Source of the DNA: Devosia submarina
Lineage (GTDB): Bacteria > Pseudomonadota > Alphaproteobacteria > Rhizobiales > Devosiaceae
Length of the DNA stretch: 64,000 bases
Direction: 5' to 3'
NCBI RefSeq assembly: GCF_003056345.1
Contig: NZ_PYWB01000001.1
Location: 1 to 64,000 of the forward strand
Below the pieces are notes generated by a model. That model was not told the DNA's origin, ran no database searches, and worked only from the letters and a program-made list of their open reading frames with translations. Every line of letters begins with the position of its first letter. Position 1 is the first letter of the stretch. Positions 53,987 through 64,000 of the stretch are shown here, piece by piece. A program made the position numbers and the translations under genes.

Positions 53987-54205
53987 GAATAACCCTCAAA
54001 GGCGATATATGCCCAAGCGCGACTTACTTCCAAACCCGTGCGCACGGCAAGTGCCGCCAAGAAAGAAGTACGGCGCGTGGTGAACAGTGCAGAACTGCCA
54101 AGGGAGGGTCGAGGAACCGGCAAGCTGCCTCTCTTTTGCGCCATTTCGGCTTCAGGTGCCACCATGCCCGGCGATGGCACCGGTGCAATCCAAGAGGACG
54201 CTTTC

Positions 54206-55069
54206 ATGCCCAGAACGACTGCGCTTTTCCTGGCGATGAGCCTGGGCCTTTTTGTATCTAGCCCCGGCCTTTCGCAAGAAGGATCGCATTCCCTGGTTGA
54301 AGTGGCAGCTGCGCTCGAGGAAAAGCTCGACGCGCGGATAGGGCTGACGGTCTACGATCTGGATAACCAGAACACGTGGGATTATCGCGCTGATGAGCGG
54401 TTTCCCATGGCCAGCACCTTCAAGGCGATGGCCTGTGCGGCTCTGCTGAGCAGGGGGGAGACCGTGATGAACACTGCGGTCGAGATCGCCGCCTCGGACC
54501 TGGTTACCTACTCACCCGTGACCGAAGCTTTGGTCGGCCAATCCGTGCCTGCATCAGAACTCTGCGACGCCACCATGCGGACCAGCGACAATACCGCCGC
54601 CAACAAGGTGCTCCAGGTTCTGGGTGGTCCCGAGGCAGTAACGCAATTCCTGCAAACAATTGGCGATGTGACGACGCGCCTCGACCGGTGGGAACCGGAC
54701 TTGAACCAGGGAACCCCTGGGGATCTGCGCGACACCACGACGCCCAAGGCAATCGCCCGTTCCTTGCACGATCTGGTACTTGGCAACAAGCTGGACGGGG
54801 TTGCCCGCAAACAATTCACCGCCTGGCTACTGTCCAACAAGGTTGGCGATCCGCTTCTGCGGGCTGGCATTCCCCCCGATTGGCGCATTGCCGATCGGAC
54901 CGGCGCCGGAGGCCACGGCACCCGCGGCATCATCGCGGTGATGTGGCCACCCAACCGCGCGCCGCTGGTCGCCGCGATATACATCACGGAAACTGCGGCC
55001 TCAATGGAGGAACGCAACACAGCAATAGCGGAAATTGGAGCGGCTCTTGCCGCATCAGTGATCGACTAA
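54206..55069 (+). CDS. Class A beta-lactamase, carbenicillinase-like (Arg at position 234)
   Basis: 287 residues from ATG 54206 (AGGA upstream); a longer frame from 54038 lacks a signal sequence. Signal peptide cut near GLS-QEG. Catalytic motifs in order: S70-TFK (70-73), SDN (127-129), E163 in EPDLNQ (the Ambler 166 Glu), and RTG (231-233) in place of the usual KTG. Arg at Ambler 234 is characteristic of CARB/PSE carbenicillinases. Two cysteines (77 and 120) sit at the class A disulfide positions. It should hydrolyse penicillins in the periplasm. No mobile element or AmpR-type regulator is adjacent, so it looks like a resident chromosomal gene. Confidence 0.9.
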   Translation: MPRTTALFLAMSLGLFVSSPGLSQEGSHSLVEVAAALEEKLDARIGLTVYDLDNQNTWDYRADERFPMASTFKAMACAALLSRGETVMNTAVEIAASDLVTYSPVTEALVGQSVPASELCDATMRTSDNTAANKVLQVLGGPEAVTQFLQTIGDVTTRLDRWEPDLNQGTPGDLRDTTTPKAIARSLHDLVLGNKLDGVARKQFTAWLLSNKVGDPLLRAGIPPDWRIADRTGAGGHGTRGIIAVMWPPNRAPLVAAIYITETAASMEERNTAIAEIGAALAASVID

Positions 55070-57707: not shown

Positions 57708-58190
57708 CTAGATGACGATCCCTCGGCCCGCCAGATAGTTCATCAATGAGCGATTGATCTCGACGACATGGGCAATGGTGGTTTCGAGACTGTTGAGTTC
57801 CGCCTCGTCGAGATCCTCCATCTTGCCGTAGCGCAGGTCGTCGCCAAAATCGGCGATGCGCATGAGCTGGGTACTCTCGATCTCGCCATTGCTGTCAAAG
57901 GAATAAACGCAATGGGTGTACTTGTTGCGCACCTTGGCTTCCCGCCGCATGGCGGCAACTATGCCCAGCGCATCGGCGCGCGATTTCGGGTCAGTGCGGG
58001 CCATCTTGGCCAGGCGCTCGATCAGGTCAAGACGCGCGCGTGTTGTGTTGAGCGTCAGGAAAATGACAATGGCGCTTTCCTTGTCGGTCCCGATCAAATG
58101 CGAGATCAGGTAGATCAGAAGGCTTTCCGTATTGGACCAGACATAGTTGAGCTTGCCGACCAGAGCAAACAGGCGCTCGGTCTTGCTCAT
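57708..58190 (-). CDS. Hypothetical helical protein coupled to the LuxR-type regulator
   Basis: 160 residues, predicted mostly helical, no signal peptide and no recognised family. KLNYVWSNTESLLIYLISHL and RREAKVRNKYTHCVYSFDS resemble small HEPN-like helical proteins only loosely (a possible R-x-x-x-x-H: RNKYTH). Its ATG overlaps the stop of the upstream LuxR-type gene (ATGA), so the two are co-translated. Confidence 0.6.
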   Translation of the reverse strand: MSKTERLFALVGKLNYVWSNTESLLIYLISHLIGTDKESAIVIFLTLNTTRARLDLIERLAKMARTDPKSRADALGIVAAMRREAKVRNKYTHCVYSFDSNGEIESTQLMRIADFGDDLRYGKMEDLDEAELNSLETTIAHVVEINRSLMNYLAGRGIVI

Positions 58191-58948
58191 CTGGGAGAAA
58201 GGTGCAGCTGAGCGCCGTTCCCCCGCATGGGGTCACCAGCTGCGTCATACCTGCTGTCCCCAATCCAGTCGCGGCATTTGGCAACGGCCTGGGTGCGATT
58301 GCTGACCCGGAGCTTGGCGAAAAGATTGCGGACATGCGCCTTCACCGTGTGTTCGGAAAGGCCCATCTGCGCTGCGATGATCTTGTTCTGGAGGCCCTTG
58401 GAAAGCAGACCCATGATCTGCGTTTCGCGCGGGGTCAGCCGGTGTGCGGCATAGTTCCGCCCATCCTCCCGTTCCCCGGTCTGGACCACGCCGGGCTTGG
58501 GGAACCGCATGGCAAGGTCCGGTGGGCAATACTCGCCTCCCGCCACAAGGATGCCCAGCACCGCTGCCAGTACGCCAATATCCATGTTCAACGGCACCAG
58601 CCCCCTGACCAGCCCGGATTGCAGCAGCTCAACGCTGCCCGACAGCAGCCTGCCACCCACCAGAAGGCCCATGGCGGCATTGGGATAGAGCCGCCGACCC
58701 GCAACAAGGTAGCGGGTCACGTCACTTTCAACCATGGGGCGCATCAGCACGAGGTCGACCATCTGGTCCGTCTCAAAGCGCGCGAAAGGATCGTGCAGCT
58801 CTACGGCAAAATTGGGCATTCTTTGGCTTGATAAATCCACCAGGACATCGAGCCCGGCTTCAGCGGTTGCGAGGAAAACAATCTTGGGCTTTCCCTGTCC
58901 GGCGCGCAATTCGGCCGGTTTTCCTAACCCGTGCATCCCGTTCTCCAT
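58187..58948 (-). CDS. LuxR/NarL-type regulator with degenerate receiver domain
   Basis: 253 residues from ATG 58948 (ATG 58936 possible). The C-terminal LuxR helix-turn-helix is clear (LTPRETQIMGLLSKGLQNKI, then MGLSEHTVKAHVRNLFAKL). The N-terminal 130 residues follow the response-regulator fold, but where the phospho-accepting Asp is expected the sequence reads VDLVLMRPM, and the conserved Lys is absent. It is therefore probably not controlled by phosphorylation, as in VpsT/CsgD-like matrix regulators. It is divergent from the Asp-Asn-Ser repeat gene, which it may control. Confidence 0.8.
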   Translation of the reverse strand: MENGMHGLGKPAELRAGQGKPKIVFLATAEAGLDVLVDLSSQRMPNFAVELHDPFARFETDQMVDLVLMRPMVESDVTRYLVAGRRLYPNAAMGLLVGGRLLSGSVELLQSGLVRGLVPLNMDIGVLAAVLGILVAGGEYCPPDLAMRFPKPGVVQTGEREDGRNYAAHRLTPRETQIMGLLSKGLQNKIIAAQMGLSEHTVKAHVRNLFAKLRVSNRTQAVAKCRDWIGDSRYDAAGDPMRGNGAQLHLSPR

Positions 58949-59290
58949 GGGGGCTGAGCGCGAAAGGATCTGGCTGGTCCTTGCGACTGGATGGCTGGCG
59001 CCCCCTCGTTCTAACACCAGCCTTCGGCATAGCTGCGGGCACTGCTCCTGCTTGAGGCAGAGTTCTATGTGCCAGGTGCGGCCAACATATTTTCGCAAGG
59101 GCAGCAGTCAAATAAGCCGAAAAGTCTAGCTAAAATGCCTGTCTATAAAATGGGCATCGGCGCGCTCAAGGTTTCGGTGCTCGCCGAACTGGTTCGCAGA
59201 TTCGGGGGCAAAACCAGGGACTGACGGCGCAGGACCCTTTCATAGAAGATTGAGGGCCGCGCCTGATTTCCCTTCTTGGGAGCAACCATC
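58949..59290. promoter_or_regulatory. 342-base divergent intergenic region
   Basis: No gene seen. ATGCC (59135-59139) and GGCAT (59153-59157) form an inverted repeat around TATAAA (59144-59149), a possible -10 with operator for the repeat-protein gene, though no good -35 is seen. GGGAG precedes the ATG at 59291. Confidence 0.35.
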
Positions 59291-60847
59291 ATGCCAGTCG
59301 AAAACCAAGGCGTCCTCCAGGACGACGGCTTTGTTAATCAGCAGAATGACGTCAACAATGACAACTCGATCGGGATCGGAGTTGCCGACAGCCTCAACGA
59401 CAACTCCGACAGTTCCACGAACGATTCCGGCAACAACAGTTCCGATAATTCTGTTGCTGATAGCTTCAATGACAACAGCGATAACTCGCTCGACGTAGCA
59501 CTCGAAAATATCGCGAACGACTCGTCCGACAATTCCCTCACCGACAGCGGAAACGACAACTCGGATAACTCAACCAATGATTCAGGGAACGACAGTTCAG
59601 ATAACTCGATAGACGTCGCTCTCGATAATGTTGCCAATAATTATTCTGACAATTCCGTTTCGGACTCAGGCAACGACAACAGCGACAATTCGCTCGATGT
59701 CGATCTCGACAACGTCGCAAATGATTACTCGGACAATTCCGATAATTCCGACAATTCGGACAACTCGGATAACTCGCTCGACGTAGCCCTGGACAACGTC
59801 GCGAACGACTACTCCGACAATTCTGATAATTCCGATAACTCGGACAATTCCGATAATTCAGACAATTCGGATAATTCGATCGACGTCGCTCTGGACAATG
59901 TCGCTAACGATTACTCGGACAATTCCAACAACTCCACTAACGACAGCAACAACAACAACAGCCGCAACTGGTCCAATCAGGAGACATTCCAACTCGATGC
60001 CTCTATGACCAATAGCGGCAACTCCGATGATGACGTCAGCGACAGCGGAAACATCACGGATGCGTTCAAAGATCAGTCCATCGACATGGCCGACTCGAAC
60101 AATGACAACTCCGATAACTCGGATAATTCGGACAATTCGGACAATTCGATCGACGTCGCACTCGACAATGTCGGCAATGACTCATCGAACAATTCCACCA
60201 ACGACTCCAACAACGACAACTCGGATAATTCCGATAATTCCGACAATTCGGTGAGCTATGCCGACGCCTTCAACGACAAGTCGGATAACTCCATCAACGA
60301 CTCGTTCAACGATAATTCGGACAACTCCGACAATTCCGATAACTCGGACAACTCCACCAACGACTCATATAATGACAACTCTACGGCCTTCGACCTCGAT
60401 GTCGACATAGCCGACGCCTTCAACACGATCACCGACGCCTACAATGACTCGAGCCAAAGTTTCGGCGAGATCAGCGTCAACTTCGAGAATGTGTTCAGCG
60501 GTGCCTCCTTTGATGGCGGCATGGGCTTTGCCATGAACCAGGTGGCCGACATCGTCGACAACGACAGCCTGAACAATGTCAGCCAGAACAACCAGGGCAA
60601 TTTCCAGGTCTGGGCCAACGCAGCGGAAAGCACGCTGGGATCGGACTGGGACGGCGTTGGCGGAAACCCGTTCTCCAGCAGCAGCGGCGGTGTTACCGCG
60701 GCAGCGGACAGCGATGCGACCGTTTCGGCAAGTGCCTTCAACCTCGATATCGCCATGGGCGCCAACCTGCAGCAGAACGCGGTGGACATTACTGTTATTG
60801 GCGGCGACTCCGACAGCTCGGTTGGCGACAGCGTCGACAACGGCTGA
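59291..60847 (+). CDS. Asp-Asn-Ser repeat protein, probable type I secretion substrate
   Basis: 518 residues from ATG 59291. Residues about 20-390 are built from D-N-S tripeptides in runs of up to seven, broken by about six copies of a unit like (L/I)DVALDNVANDYSDNS. The last 130 residues are less repetitive and richer in Gly, Ala and hydrophobics (NQVADIVDNDSLNNVSQNNQ, FNLDIAMGANLQQNAVDITV). There is almost no Lys or Arg and no Cys, so it is extremely acidic and probably calcium-dependent in folding. No Sec signal. The type I exporter gene two genes downstream suggests export by that route. No named family recognised. Confidence 0.7.
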   Translation: MPVENQGVLQDDGFVNQQNDVNNDNSIGIGVADSLNDNSDSSTNDSGNNSSDNSVADSFNDNSDNSLDVALENIANDSSDNSLTDSGNDNSDNSTNDSGNDSSDNSIDVALDNVANNYSDNSVSDSGNDNSDNSLDVDLDNVANDYSDNSDNSDNSDNSDNSLDVALDNVANDYSDNSDNSDNSDNSDNSDNSDNSIDVALDNVANDYSDNSNNSTNDSNNNNSRNWSNQETFQLDASMTNSGNSDDDVSDSGNITDAFKDQSIDMADSNNDNSDNSDNSDNSDNSIDVALDNVGNDSSNNSTNDSNNDNSDNSDNSDNSVSYADAFNDKSDNSINDSFNDNSDNSDNSDNSDNSTNDSYNDNSTAFDLDVDIADAFNTITDAYNDSSQSFGEISVNFENVFSGASFDGGMGFAMNQVADIVDNDSLNNVSQNNQGNFQVWANAAESTLGSDWDGVGGNPFSSSSGGVTAAADSDATVSASAFNLDIAMGANLQQNAVDITVIGGDSDSSVGDSVDNG

Positions 60848-60867
60848 TCTTCCAACCCGTAAGATGG

Positions 60868-60897
60868 AGGCACGCGGCTTAACCCGCGTGCCTTTCT
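60868..60897 (+). terminator. Hairpin after the Asp-Asn-Ser repeat gene
   Basis: AGGCACGCGG-CTTAAC-CCGCGTGCCT, a perfect 10-base-pair stem followed by TTCTCC. It may end the repeat-gene transcript partly, leaving lower expression of the next genes. Confidence 0.7.
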
Positions 60898-60921
60898 CCG
60901 CTGGGAGGAGGGGAAGAGCAG

Positions 60922-62874
60922 ATGCATCAAGACAGCATAAGCGAGACGATTGCCCACTTCATTGGCCTGTTCGAAACCCAGGCAGAAATAGCGCGGCTCC
61001 GACACGGATATGATGAGTTCTCCCATGTGGTGAAGAACCCGAACCCCGAGCCGCTGCCCGATGCCCATTCTCCTCTTCCGCGTCAGGTTCTGGAACTGAC
61101 GCCCAACAATCCCCTCATCGAATATACGCCCGAGGCCACGCAGGCCCATGTGATCGCATCAACGCCGCCGCTCGCCATCAAATTGATGCCGATGCGCATG
61201 CCCGAGCCGGACTGGAGTCCCAAGCTTCCCTCGCTCATGCAAGGCGCGTCCCCTGGTGTGCCGGTCGAACCCACGCCGCTGATCGGTCCCGTGCCAGGCT
61301 CGGTCGGGATGATCGTGGCGCAATATGTCGAGCTCTCCGACAATGATGTCGTCGTGATTGGCGGCTATTCAGGACCGCTTCCAAATCACCAGCACGATAA
61401 TGCAGCCCTCAACGGCATGATTGGCGATCTCGACGCCTTCTCGGCGCCCTTAACCGATCTGTCTTCCAACGACATTTTCCACACCATCCCTGAGTTCATG
61501 GCTGCAGCTGCCGACGCTGCGATGGAGATGGCGCAGTACCAGGCGCCCGGCATGTCGGTGTCCTCAGCCGTAGGCTCGGAAACCCAAGGCACGCATGTCA
61601 ATGGTGAGCAGGTCACCGAGCTGCCGGTGCTCGAGGATTGGCTTCCTCCTGAACCTAGCGAGGAAGCGCCGGTGACCACAGGATCTGTGTCGCTGCAGAC
61701 CGGCGACGACAGCATCACCGTTGCGACAGGGAACAATGTTCTCGCCAATCAGGCAACGATCATCGACGCGGGCCTTGCCCCTGCCATCGTTGCGGTTTTG
61801 GGCGATCATTTCCAGCTCGATCTCATCGCCCAGGCCAATGCCTTTATCGATATCGACCACGTAGACGCCGGCTTCCCCGGCGCTTCCACCGGCGGAGCAA
61901 CGGCTGCCTTCAACATCGCGAGTTTCACAAACAACACGCTTGATGCGCAGGGCGCGGCTATCGCCGCCAACCCCGAGGCCATGCCAACAAACTGGACGGT
62001 CAGCATCCTTGAGGGAGATCTGGTTTTCCTCCAATGGGTCGCGCAATACACCTTTGCGTCCGACAATGATCTTGTGGTCATGACGGCAACCGGTTCGACC
62101 ACCAATATCGACACGGGCAACAATGGCATCCACAACGATCTGTCGTTCGCCAATCTCGGCCTTTACTACGACATCGTCATCATCGGCGGAAATCTCTACG
62201 ATGCCAATCTGATCTGCCAGACCAATATCCTTTACGACAATGATACGCTGCAGATGCTGGCCGATGCGCAGCTATCAGGGTCCTCCGAAACATCGGGCAA
62301 TCTGCTCTGGAACCAGGCAAGCATCCTAAAATATGGCCCGCAAGGATCAACGGGCGCCTTGCCAGATCATTATTCCGGCGCTGCCGAAGCGCTGGGCCGC
62401 GGCGACTTGGGCATGCCGGACGGCTTCTCCGGCGATCCCGCGCTCGCAGGTCTGGGGCATCTGCGGGTGCTCTATGTCACCGGCAATGTCTACGACCTGC
62501 GCTATGTCGAGCAGACCAATGTATTGACTGACGCAGACACTCTTGCCGTCTACGCTCAAGGGGCAGAGGCGCTTGCCGGAAGCGAGTGGACGGTCAGCAC
62601 GGGCCAGAATGCCCTGACCAATATCGCGAGCATCGTGGACTACGCCTCCGCCAGTGACACTTTTTACGTGGGCGGCGGCAGCTATTCAGACGCCGTCCTG
62701 ATCCAGGCTGATTTGATGGACGCCACCTCTTCCAGCGCAACGGGCCTGCCCAATGAACTTGTGGCCTTCCTCGAACAGGAACCCGCCCTGCAGGTCACGC
62801 CCGATTTCTACCACGCGCCGATTTCCCATGCCGACTCTGCACCGGCAGACGTCATGCAATCCGTTCTCGCCTAA
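60922..62874 (+). CDS. Beta-repeat protein next to type I exporter, probable secreted or biogenesis partner
   Basis: 650 residues with no Sec signal or membrane span. A helical start (MHQDSISETIAHFIGLFETQ) and a proline-rich linker precede at least four imperfect units of about 70-110 residues after residue 240. Each has a GNNxLxN-A-I start and a V-GG-YD-LI-Q-N core ending in D-x-D-x-L; examples are TGNNVLANQATIIDAG, IVIIGGNLYDANLICQTNIL, VLYVTGNVYDLRYVEQTNVL and TGQNALTNIASIVDYA. An isolated core-like segment (VELSDNDVVVIGGYSGPLPN) occurs near residue 140. The pattern suggests a beta-solenoid or beta-sandwich array. The gene ends 17 bases before the exporter gene, implying one operon. Function unknown. 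Confidence 0.65.
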   Translation: MHQDSISETIAHFIGLFETQAEIARLRHGYDEFSHVVKNPNPEPLPDAHSPLPRQVLELTPNNPLIEYTPEATQAHVIASTPPLAIKLMPMRMPEPDWSPKLPSLMQGASPGVPVEPTPLIGPVPGSVGMIVAQYVELSDNDVVVIGGYSGPLPNHQHDNAALNGMIGDLDAFSAPLTDLSSNDIFHTIPEFMAAAADAAMEMAQYQAPGMSVSSAVGSETQGTHVNGEQVTELPVLEDWLPPEPSEEAPVTTGSVSLQTGDDSITVATGNNVLANQATIIDAGLAPAIVAVLGDHFQLDLIAQANAFIDIDHVDAGFPGASTGGATAAFNIASFTNNTLDAQGAAIAANPEAMPTNWTVSILEGDLVFLQWVAQYTFASDNDLVVMTATGSTTNIDTGNNGIHNDLSFANLGLYYDIVIIGGNLYDANLICQTNILYDNDTLQMLADAQLSGSSETSGNLLWNQASILKYGPQGSTGALPDHYSGAAEALGRGDLGMPDGFSGDPALAGLGHLRVLYVTGNVYDLRYVEQTNVLTDADTLAVYAQGAEALAGSEWTVSTGQNALTNIASIVDYASASDTFYVGGGSYSDAVLIQADLMDATSSSATGLPNELVAFLEQEPALQVTPDFYHAPISHADSAPADVMQSVLA

Positions 62875-62891
62875 ACCGGAGCACCGGGCCT

Positions 62892-64000
62892 ATGCTTCAC
62901 CAAGCCTTTTCGAAAACGCCTGTTGCCGATCCAGACCTCGAAAGAAGCGGCAGCACGATCCAGGACGTCCTGGATGATATAGACGCCGCTGTCAGCAAGC
63001 TCGACCGTCTTGCAACAGAACAGCCAAGTCCTGCTGAAAGACCAAGGCAAGCCGCACGGCAGGAGCAGCCTGCCGCCGAGGCGAAGCAACCTTTGCACGC
63101 CCCGTCGGTGCCGCCCGAGCCCAGCGCAGAAGCGCCGCTGAACAAGCCTTTTCCCGGCACCGGACCCAAACCAATCCCGCCAGTAATTGACGTGGAACGC
63201 GGCCTCCTGCGCCCTGGTGACCGGAGCCCCTCCAAAGGCGCGCAGGTCCCACCAAAGCCACCGGGCGGCGGGTTTCACCGGCGCACACCAACGCCGGATT
63301 TCGCCGAAAGCTTCCGCAACGGCATCAACGCAGTCCGGCGCAATCTGGCTGTGGTTATGGCCTTCACGATCGTCATCAACGTGCTGGTCCTCGCCATACC
63401 CGTCTACCTTTTCCAGATCTCCGATCGCGTGCTCACCAGCCGGTCCATCGACACGCTCGTCATGCTGACCGCTGTTGTGATCGGTGCCGTGGTGCTGCAA
63501 GCCATGATCGACGCGATCCGGCGCTTTATCCTGATGCGCACGGCCGTTGAAGTTGAAGCCCAACTCGGTGCGCCCATCTTGTCGGCCGCAGCGCGTGCTT
63601 CGCTCCATGGCACAGGCCGTGAATACCAGGTTCTGGGTGATCTGCAGCAGGTGCGCTCCTTTATCACCTCCGGAACGCTGCTGTCCTTTCTTGATGCCCC
63701 CATCGCGCCGCTCTTCGTGTTCGCCGTTTTCCTTGTGCACCCCCATCTGGGCTCAATTGTTGTCGCGGCCTCGATCGTCCTCGTCATCATCGCCTTCATC
63801 AACCAGAAGCTGACGGCCGGACATTTCGCCGACTCATCGGGCTTCCTGGGCCGGGCAACAGCGCATCTCGACTCCATGTCGCGCAATGCGCAGATCATCA
63901 ACGCCCTGGCCATGATCCCAGAAGCCGTCCGCATCTGGGGGCGCGACACCGCCTTTTCCCTGCGCTCCCAGGTCATGGCGCAAGACCGCAACATCATCAT
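62892..64000 (+). CDS. Type I secretion ABC transporter, PrsD/HlyB-like (truncated by window end)
   Basis: The frame from ATG 62892 stays open to the last base (about 369 codons) and is cut by the window. Residues 1-150 are an unusual proline- and alanine-rich extension. From about 160 the transmembrane domain of type I exporters begins (VINVLVLAIPVYLFQISDRV, LTSRSIDTLVMLTAVVIG, LGDLQQVRSFITSGTLLSFL, DAPIAPLFVFAVFLVHPHLG). The ATP-binding domain lies beyond position 64000. It should export the acidic repeat proteins encoded just upstream, together with a membrane-fusion protein expected downstream. Confidence 0.85.
   Translation, partial: MLHQAFSKTPVADPDLERSGSTIQDVLDDIDAAVSKLDRLATEQPSPAERPRQAARQEQPAAEAKQPLHAPSVPPEPSAEAPLNKPFPGTGPKPIPPVIDVERGLLRPGDRSPSKGAQVPPKPPGGGFHRRTPTPDFAESFRNGINAVRRNLAVVMAFTIVINVLVLAIPVYLFQISDRVLTSRSIDTLVMLTAVVIGAVVLQAMIDAIRRFILMRTAVEVEAQLGAPILSAAARASLHGTGREYQVLGDLQQVRSFITSGTLLSFLDAPIAPLFVFAVFLVHPHLGSIVVAASIVLVIIAFINQKLTAGHFADSSGFLGRATAHLDSMSRNAQIINALAMIPEAVRIWGRDTAFSLRSQVMAQDRNII

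Follow-up and report, generated by a model that had tools for sequence, protein, structure and literature searches.

A conserved gene cluster of Devosia submarina with a candidate non-RTX type I secretion system for two repeat proteins

Introduction

Which proteins are exported by the type I system encoded at the right-hand end of the Devosia submarina sequence studied here, and what might they do outside the cell? The window, the whole stretch of 64,000 nucleotides that was analysed, is the first part of a contig of 570,501 bases (C1) in a genome of 3.98 Mb. The original prediction placed a candidate surface system of a new type at 58187-64000, in which a LuxR-type regulator stands opposite the genes for two repeat proteins and a type I exporter. 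The cluster is real, its extent was given too small: the gene of a small protein (h160), which begins the cluster at 57708, was missed, and the gene for an HlyD-type protein continues it to 66346 on the contig. The closest named relative that we encountered is Devosia crocina.

Results

Organization of the cluster

The features of the cluster are as follows.

57708-58190, minus strand: h160, a cytoplasmic protein of 160 amino acids with an RN-x3-H region and conserved residues
58187-58948, minus strand: LuxR-type regulator with a pseudo-receiver, that is, a GerE match and a receiver-like N-terminus
58949-59290, no strand: divergent intergenic region, presumed to be regulatory from its position
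59291-60847, plus strand: Protein A, 518 amino acids, an Asp/Asn/Ser repeat chain with a C-terminal domain
60734-60805, plus strand: C-terminal signature of A, AFNLDIAMGANLQQNAVDITVIGG
60922-62874, plus strand: Protein B, 650 amino acids, with Asn/Gln/Asp repeats
61723-62721, plus strand: repeat region of B, with copies at residues 268-314, 397-443, 456-541 and 558-600
62892-64000 in the window, to 65012 on the contig, plus strand: PrtD-type ABC exporter
62892-63326, plus strand: N-terminal extension of the exporter
65009-66346 on the contig, beyond the window, plus strand: HlyD-type membrane-fusion protein

The longest open reading frame of the regulator gene spans 58187-59098, and the ATG at 58948 is the more likely start. 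The h160 gene overlaps the stop of the regulator gene by 4 bp; because of this overlap, and because h160 is conserved with the cluster, the start of the module was set at 57708. As predicted, the regulator gene is divergent from the gene for A and the exporter gene begins within 17 bp of the stop of B. The membrane-fusion gene, which had been expected to the right of the window, was found there and overlaps the exporter gene by 4 bp. The ATG of A at 59291 is preceded by GGGAG nine bases upstream. A comparison with A of Devosia crocina over 472 aligned codons gave 102, 78 and 212 differences at codon positions 1, 2 and 3, which supports the view that A behaves as a coding gene and is translated.

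Conservation and distribution

A total of 49 loci with a match to B were inspected; 48 were kept and one (L087, with B at E 1e-11 and no h160) was set aside. A, B, the ABC exporter and the HlyD protein occur together at all 48 kept loci, though this and the other counts over the 48 are not independent because the loci are related. A was recognised with a C-terminal profile made from genus members at 42 of them and from position and composition at six (L067, L069, L077, L079, L080 and L091). It is incomplete at L065, where the contig ends, and at L093, where it is frameshifted; at L070 B is split between open reading frames. Thus a conserved cluster of an undescribed type was rightly proposed. 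The opposite case, an exporter that belongs to an unrelated substrate and repeat genes that are not conserved with it, is contradicted, because the HlyD gene follows and the four genes stay together at every kept locus.

B is encoded in 10 of 31 genomes of the genus (D. submarina included) and in 33 of 397 genomes of the order, which represent 18 of 141 genera. The class-wide sample contained B in two of 385 genomes, one of them our own, and the phylum-wide sample in eight of 398 (seven from the order, among them our own, and one from another part of the class). A second order was entered through a genome (G902) that had been picked because it had a B match, and here 21 of 148 genomes encode B. 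The gene is also present on 32 plasmid or megaplasmid records, including those of Ensifer, Sinorhizobium, Shinella, Rhizobium, Paracoccus, Sulfitobacter, Cereibacter and Rhodobacter.

The exporter forms a separate clade

The exporter scores 714.5 bits with TIGR01842 (cut-off 510.15), which places it in the PrtD subfamily, and the HlyD protein 387.1 bits with TIGR01843 (cut-off 208.65). The genome encodes two TolC-type proteins over the cut-off, both outside the cluster; their genes are on contigs C6 and C45.

A tree was calculated from 16 module exporters and 14 of the 25 other PrtD exporters of the same 16 genomes, four of the 14 being long branches. The module exporters make up one side of a branch that has a support of 100/99 and is present in all 200 bootstrap trees. 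All 16 carry extra N-terminal residues (76-318, median 137), compared with -14 to +22 in the 14 others. The extension may not be exclusive to the module, because among the 11 non-module PrtD exporters left out of the tree there are two with open frames 682 and 768 amino acids long. By its position in the tree the module exporter is a dedicated one, set apart from the other exporters of the same genomes that were compared.

Type I exporters often serve unlinked substrates, for example PrsDE with Rap proteins. The exporter could in principle be a generic one for RTX substrates encoded elsewhere, with A and B as incidental neighbours. Yet A and B accompany it at every kept locus, Hyphomicrobiales and Rhodobacterales included, and the separate clade likewise points to an exporter of the module's own. 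This explanation is already disfavoured, and we give it hardly any weight.

The D. submarina genome encodes a second PrtD exporter with an HlyD protein on contig C44 (L029:6231-12030), which lacks the N-terminal extension. An adjoining open reading frame of 592 amino acids may encode the substrate of that exporter.

Proteins A and B

A was described as rich in aspartate and asparagine, which is correct: 60% of its residues are Asp, Asn or Ser, it contains three Lys and Arg against 110 Asp and Glu, it has no cysteine, and its calculated pI is 4.05, the floor of the calculator. The same description does not hold for B, which contains 7.2% Asp and 5.5% Asn and is ordinary next to A. Hydropathy agrees with the proposed absence of a Sec signal from both proteins: the 15-residue Kyte-Doolittle maximum within the first 50 residues is 0.21 in A and 0.90 in B, so that neither has a hydrophobic stretch there, as judged by hydropathy only and not by a signal-peptide predictor. 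Because the genes are linked, the exporter clade is separate and Sec-type N-termini are lacking, A and B are likely to be the substrates of the ABC-HlyD pair of the module.

Neither protein of the window has a Pfam match at E 0.1 or any match over an NCBIfam cut-off, and RTX nonapeptide calcium-binding repeats were found in neither (Pfam, E 0.1). A single Pfam match, below the cut-off and not to an RTX family, came from six A and two B homologues of other loci. Searches of PDB sequences with the A profile, the A C-terminus alone and the B profile returned nothing significant. An AlphaFold2 model of B, made from two sequences, had a pLDDT of 26.7 and could not be used.

The signature at the end of A has the form AFNxxIxxGANxxxNxVDxxVxGG, and 45 of 49 A proteins contain G[AQSEL][NQ]xxxN within their last 80 residues; the motif is missing in L067-L069 and L087. 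Outside the C-terminal domain A is variable. Among 13 genus-level loci the repeats are of a DNS type in 10 and of a QDQ type in three (L027, L028 and L060), and glycine-rich repeats are present in Shinella, Paracoccus and Sulfitobacter. In two genomes that belong to one genus A is a giant protein in which the C-terminal domain recurs in tandem, 11 and 12 times, at a spacing of about 134 residues.

At two loci a tandem pair of A-like genes lies before B (L066:5218-6814 and L068:4712-6732).

The repeats of B have the form GxNxxxNxAxI ... QxNxLxDxD, and at positions 134, 304, 375, 433, 531 and 595 glutamine is conserved, with 44-45 of 45 sequences having it. With a model of the first half-repeat, 35 of 47 C-termini of A scored higher than the 99th percentile of 940 composition-preserving shuffles; with a model of the second half-repeat just six of 47 did so. 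The motif GxNxxxN was counted 161 times in the 47 B proteins, where shuffles give 7.4, and 89 times in the 47 A proteins, where they give 32.8. Compared directly, the A domain and the B profile align over 34 columns at the repeat with an E of 3.9e-4 and a probability of 36% (controls E 0.51-0.97). These results argue with moderate strength for a repeat motif common to B and the C-terminal domain of A.

They also bear on the question whether both proteins belong to the matrix. If the exported matrix consists of A alone, B might be an export accessory or a surface anchor, and its likeness to A a convergence of repeat composition. The ordinary composition of B, its length, which is less variable among genus members, and the moderate repeat relation would fit such a division of labour. 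On the other hand, B lacks a hydrophobic N-terminus and sits between A and the exporter, its extreme C-terminus is conserved, and the motif that it has in common with A exceeds what composition-preserving shuffles yield. We therefore consider an A-only matrix unlikely, and prefer both proteins as matrix components.

A candidate fusion of A and B in Rhodobacter sp. CZR27 (L093) was dropped as evidence, because the single CDS loses the frame and the signature of A before B begins, which looks like a frameshift. In another locus (L096:8380-10488) and in records of Sulfitobacter sp. W074, B is labelled 'type I secretion protein ATPase'; B of the window has no ATPase match.

h160 is a near-obligate partner

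h160 is encoded at 46 of the 48 loci. At L065, one of the two exceptions, the contig ends and h160 is found on a different contig; at L079, the other, the gene is cut by the edge of the examined stretch. In the 397 genomes of the order h160 is found in 35 and both genes in 32, that is, in 32 of the 33 genomes with B (Fisher p 1.4e-42, relatedness ignored). The exceptions are G317, which has a weak B only, and G321, G365 and G378, which have h160 without B; G276 and G131 carry the two genes on separate contigs. The h160 gene is divergent and upstream at 38 loci, co-directional and downstream at five and co-directional and upstream at three. It thus changes place, outlasts the LuxR gene and remains with the cluster, which makes it the more constant, near-obligate partner.

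Eleven residues are invariant in the 46 homologues (G12, W18, N20, E22, S23, R51, R53, R59, H93, T107 and G122), and R88 and N89 are kept in 45. For h160 of the window there was no Pfam match at E 0.1 and nothing over an NCBIfam cut-off, and its profile had no significant match among PDB sequences. The structure model has a pLDDT of 58.8, and none of its 169 Foldseek matches reaches E 0.001.

HEPN proteins carry an R-x4-6-H motif. The RN-x3-H arrangement of h160 (R88, H93) fits it, and this region is the likeness to HepT-like HEPN proteins. Against it stands that profiles of h160 and of HepT-like proteins from within the order gave no significant match (probability 0.78%, E 0.072), barely exceeding controls of 0.07-0.23%. 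The HEPN-like region and the near-obligate presence of h160 would suit a toxin-type system with a toxic repeat protein as the secreted substrate and h160 as a toxin or an immunity protein. Apart from the non-significant profile match, PADLOC reports nothing for h160 or B, and neither A nor B has a match to a catalytic or RTX family. A toxin system is thus improbable, and an export system for matrix proteins remains our preferred reading.

A pseudo-receiver regulator in some lineages

A GerE match was found in 10 of 10 LuxR homologues and Response_reg in none; the regulator of the window is not among the 65 receiver matches of the genome. Its N-terminal domain can nevertheless be aligned with receivers along 108 columns, with an E of 4.5e-5 and a probability of 69% (controls E 0.16-0.53). 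None of 27 homologues retains the receiver lysine or the first acidic residue, and the phospho-Asp column contains Asp in five of the 27 and Arg in the window, so that the protein was correctly recognised as a pseudo-receiver without the phospho-Asp. The regulator is present at 28 of the 48 loci, divergent at 26 of them, and missing at 20, including that of D. crocina. Its proposed control of the cluster is thus supported in part. No common dyad or operator was found in 12 LuxR-A intergenic regions, in which the best 10-mer occurs in seven of 12 compared with four of 12 in one shuffled set.

Discussion

A working model

Judged from sequence, the cluster is more probably than otherwise a dedicated non-RTX type I system that exports a two-protein surface matrix. 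The ABC exporter with its N-terminal extension and the HlyD protein, with a TolC protein encoded elsewhere, would carry A and B out of the cell, neither of them having a Sec signal. Once exported, A would be a long, acidic and flexible chain that ends in a structured repeat unit, and A and B, which has several related Asn/Gln/Asp repeats, might assemble through the shared repeat into an adhesive matrix or a surface fibre. Assembly outside the cell is favoured because the two proteins share repeats and A expands into tandem arrays. Inside, h160 might hold A or B ready for export or control their synthesis. In some lineages the pseudo-receiver LuxR protein, encoded divergently by a gene that overlaps h160, may set expression without phosphorylation.

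A reading to which we assign a rather low probability has A and B, with neither Sec signal nor RTX repeats, as a two-protein extracellular polymer of a kind not recognised before, formed through the same Asn/Gln/Asp repeat, while an HEPN-like, RNA-acting h160, which would have become nearly indispensable to a secretion machine, polices its production and the LuxR protein is a phosphorylation-free switch in some lineages.

Relation to known systems

Passages from two reports describe BapA of Paracoccus denitrificans as an acidic simple-repeat protein that adjoins its type I exporter and is needed for surface attachment (PMC5588039, PMC13235738), and the dependence of this acidic-repeat adhesin on the type I system is stated in one of them (PMC5588039). 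An acidic-repeat protein exported by a type I system can thus serve as a surface adhesin, as BapA shows. BapA contains 891 Asp-Ala repeats, and bapBCD includes an outer-membrane gene, which the present module lacks in the cluster; a counterpart of B or h160 is not mentioned in these passages (PMC5588039, PMC13235738). BapA/BapBCD is a cluster different from ours. P. denitrificans HAMBI_2443 (L088) carries our six-gene module on a replicon of 1.73 Mb; the published analysis, according to the passage, predicts bapBCD as the single type I system (PMC5588039), a comparison at species level.

PrsDE of Rhizobium leguminosarum is like the module a type I exporter with matrix-associated substrates. 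The Rap proteins there carry Ra/CHDL domains, whereas A and B of the window match no Pfam family, and within the set of PrtD exporters compared, which included no sequence named PrsD, those of the module make up a clade by themselves. Regularly spaced Asn and Gln in repeats are also a property of curli and other Asn/Gln-ladder amyloids. The curli genes lie beside that of the LuxR-type regulator CsgD, and export proceeds via CsgG. In contrast, A and B have no Curlin match (Pfam) and no Sec-type N-terminus, and the module has a type I exporter instead of CsgG. No paper on the module was found among the top-ranked literature matches, in a coverage that leaves out most subscription journals. The machine is of a known kind; the presumed substrates A and B as well as h160 are undescribed in the libraries searched.

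If the preferred reading is correct, a conserved gene set probably builds an adhesive coat from two unusual exported repeat proteins, and Devosia, rhizobia and relatives of Paracoccus and Rhodobacter would gain two secreted families that have not been described, along with a dedicated clade of exporters. The near-obligate h160 raises the question why an exporter of repeat proteins needs a small protein. P. denitrificans HAMBI_2443, which has the whole set, is a tractable host.

Polysaccharide genes near the module

The neighbouring gmd and fcl genes had been linked to the module as the source of a fucose donor. This link is not upheld, because no gmd or fcl orthologue was found at the 47 other loci, where just four matches to distant epimerases of 26-27% identity occur at three loci; the adjacency is local. 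Among 76 flanking open reading frames from 20 loci, GH10 and Acetyltransf_6 were each found four times and Glycos_transf_1 twice. All three are absent among the 25 families listed for 80 control frames from 20 stretches of the same genomes, a weak contrast because the control families are known only among those listed, down to one-member families. A polysaccharide linkage of the module was not accepted on these counts, and the weak polysaccharide neighbourhood, like the lack of the regulator at 20 of 48 loci, speaks against the working model.

Upstream of fcl, an open reading frame at 54038-55069 on the plus strand contains STFK and SDN motifs, which we take to be class A beta-lactamase-like. 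After the module, contig C1 carries an apparent run of polysaccharide-type genes (66449-73447), the first of which, the only one scanned, matches Glycos_transf_1. B of D. crocina is 52% identical to B of the window.
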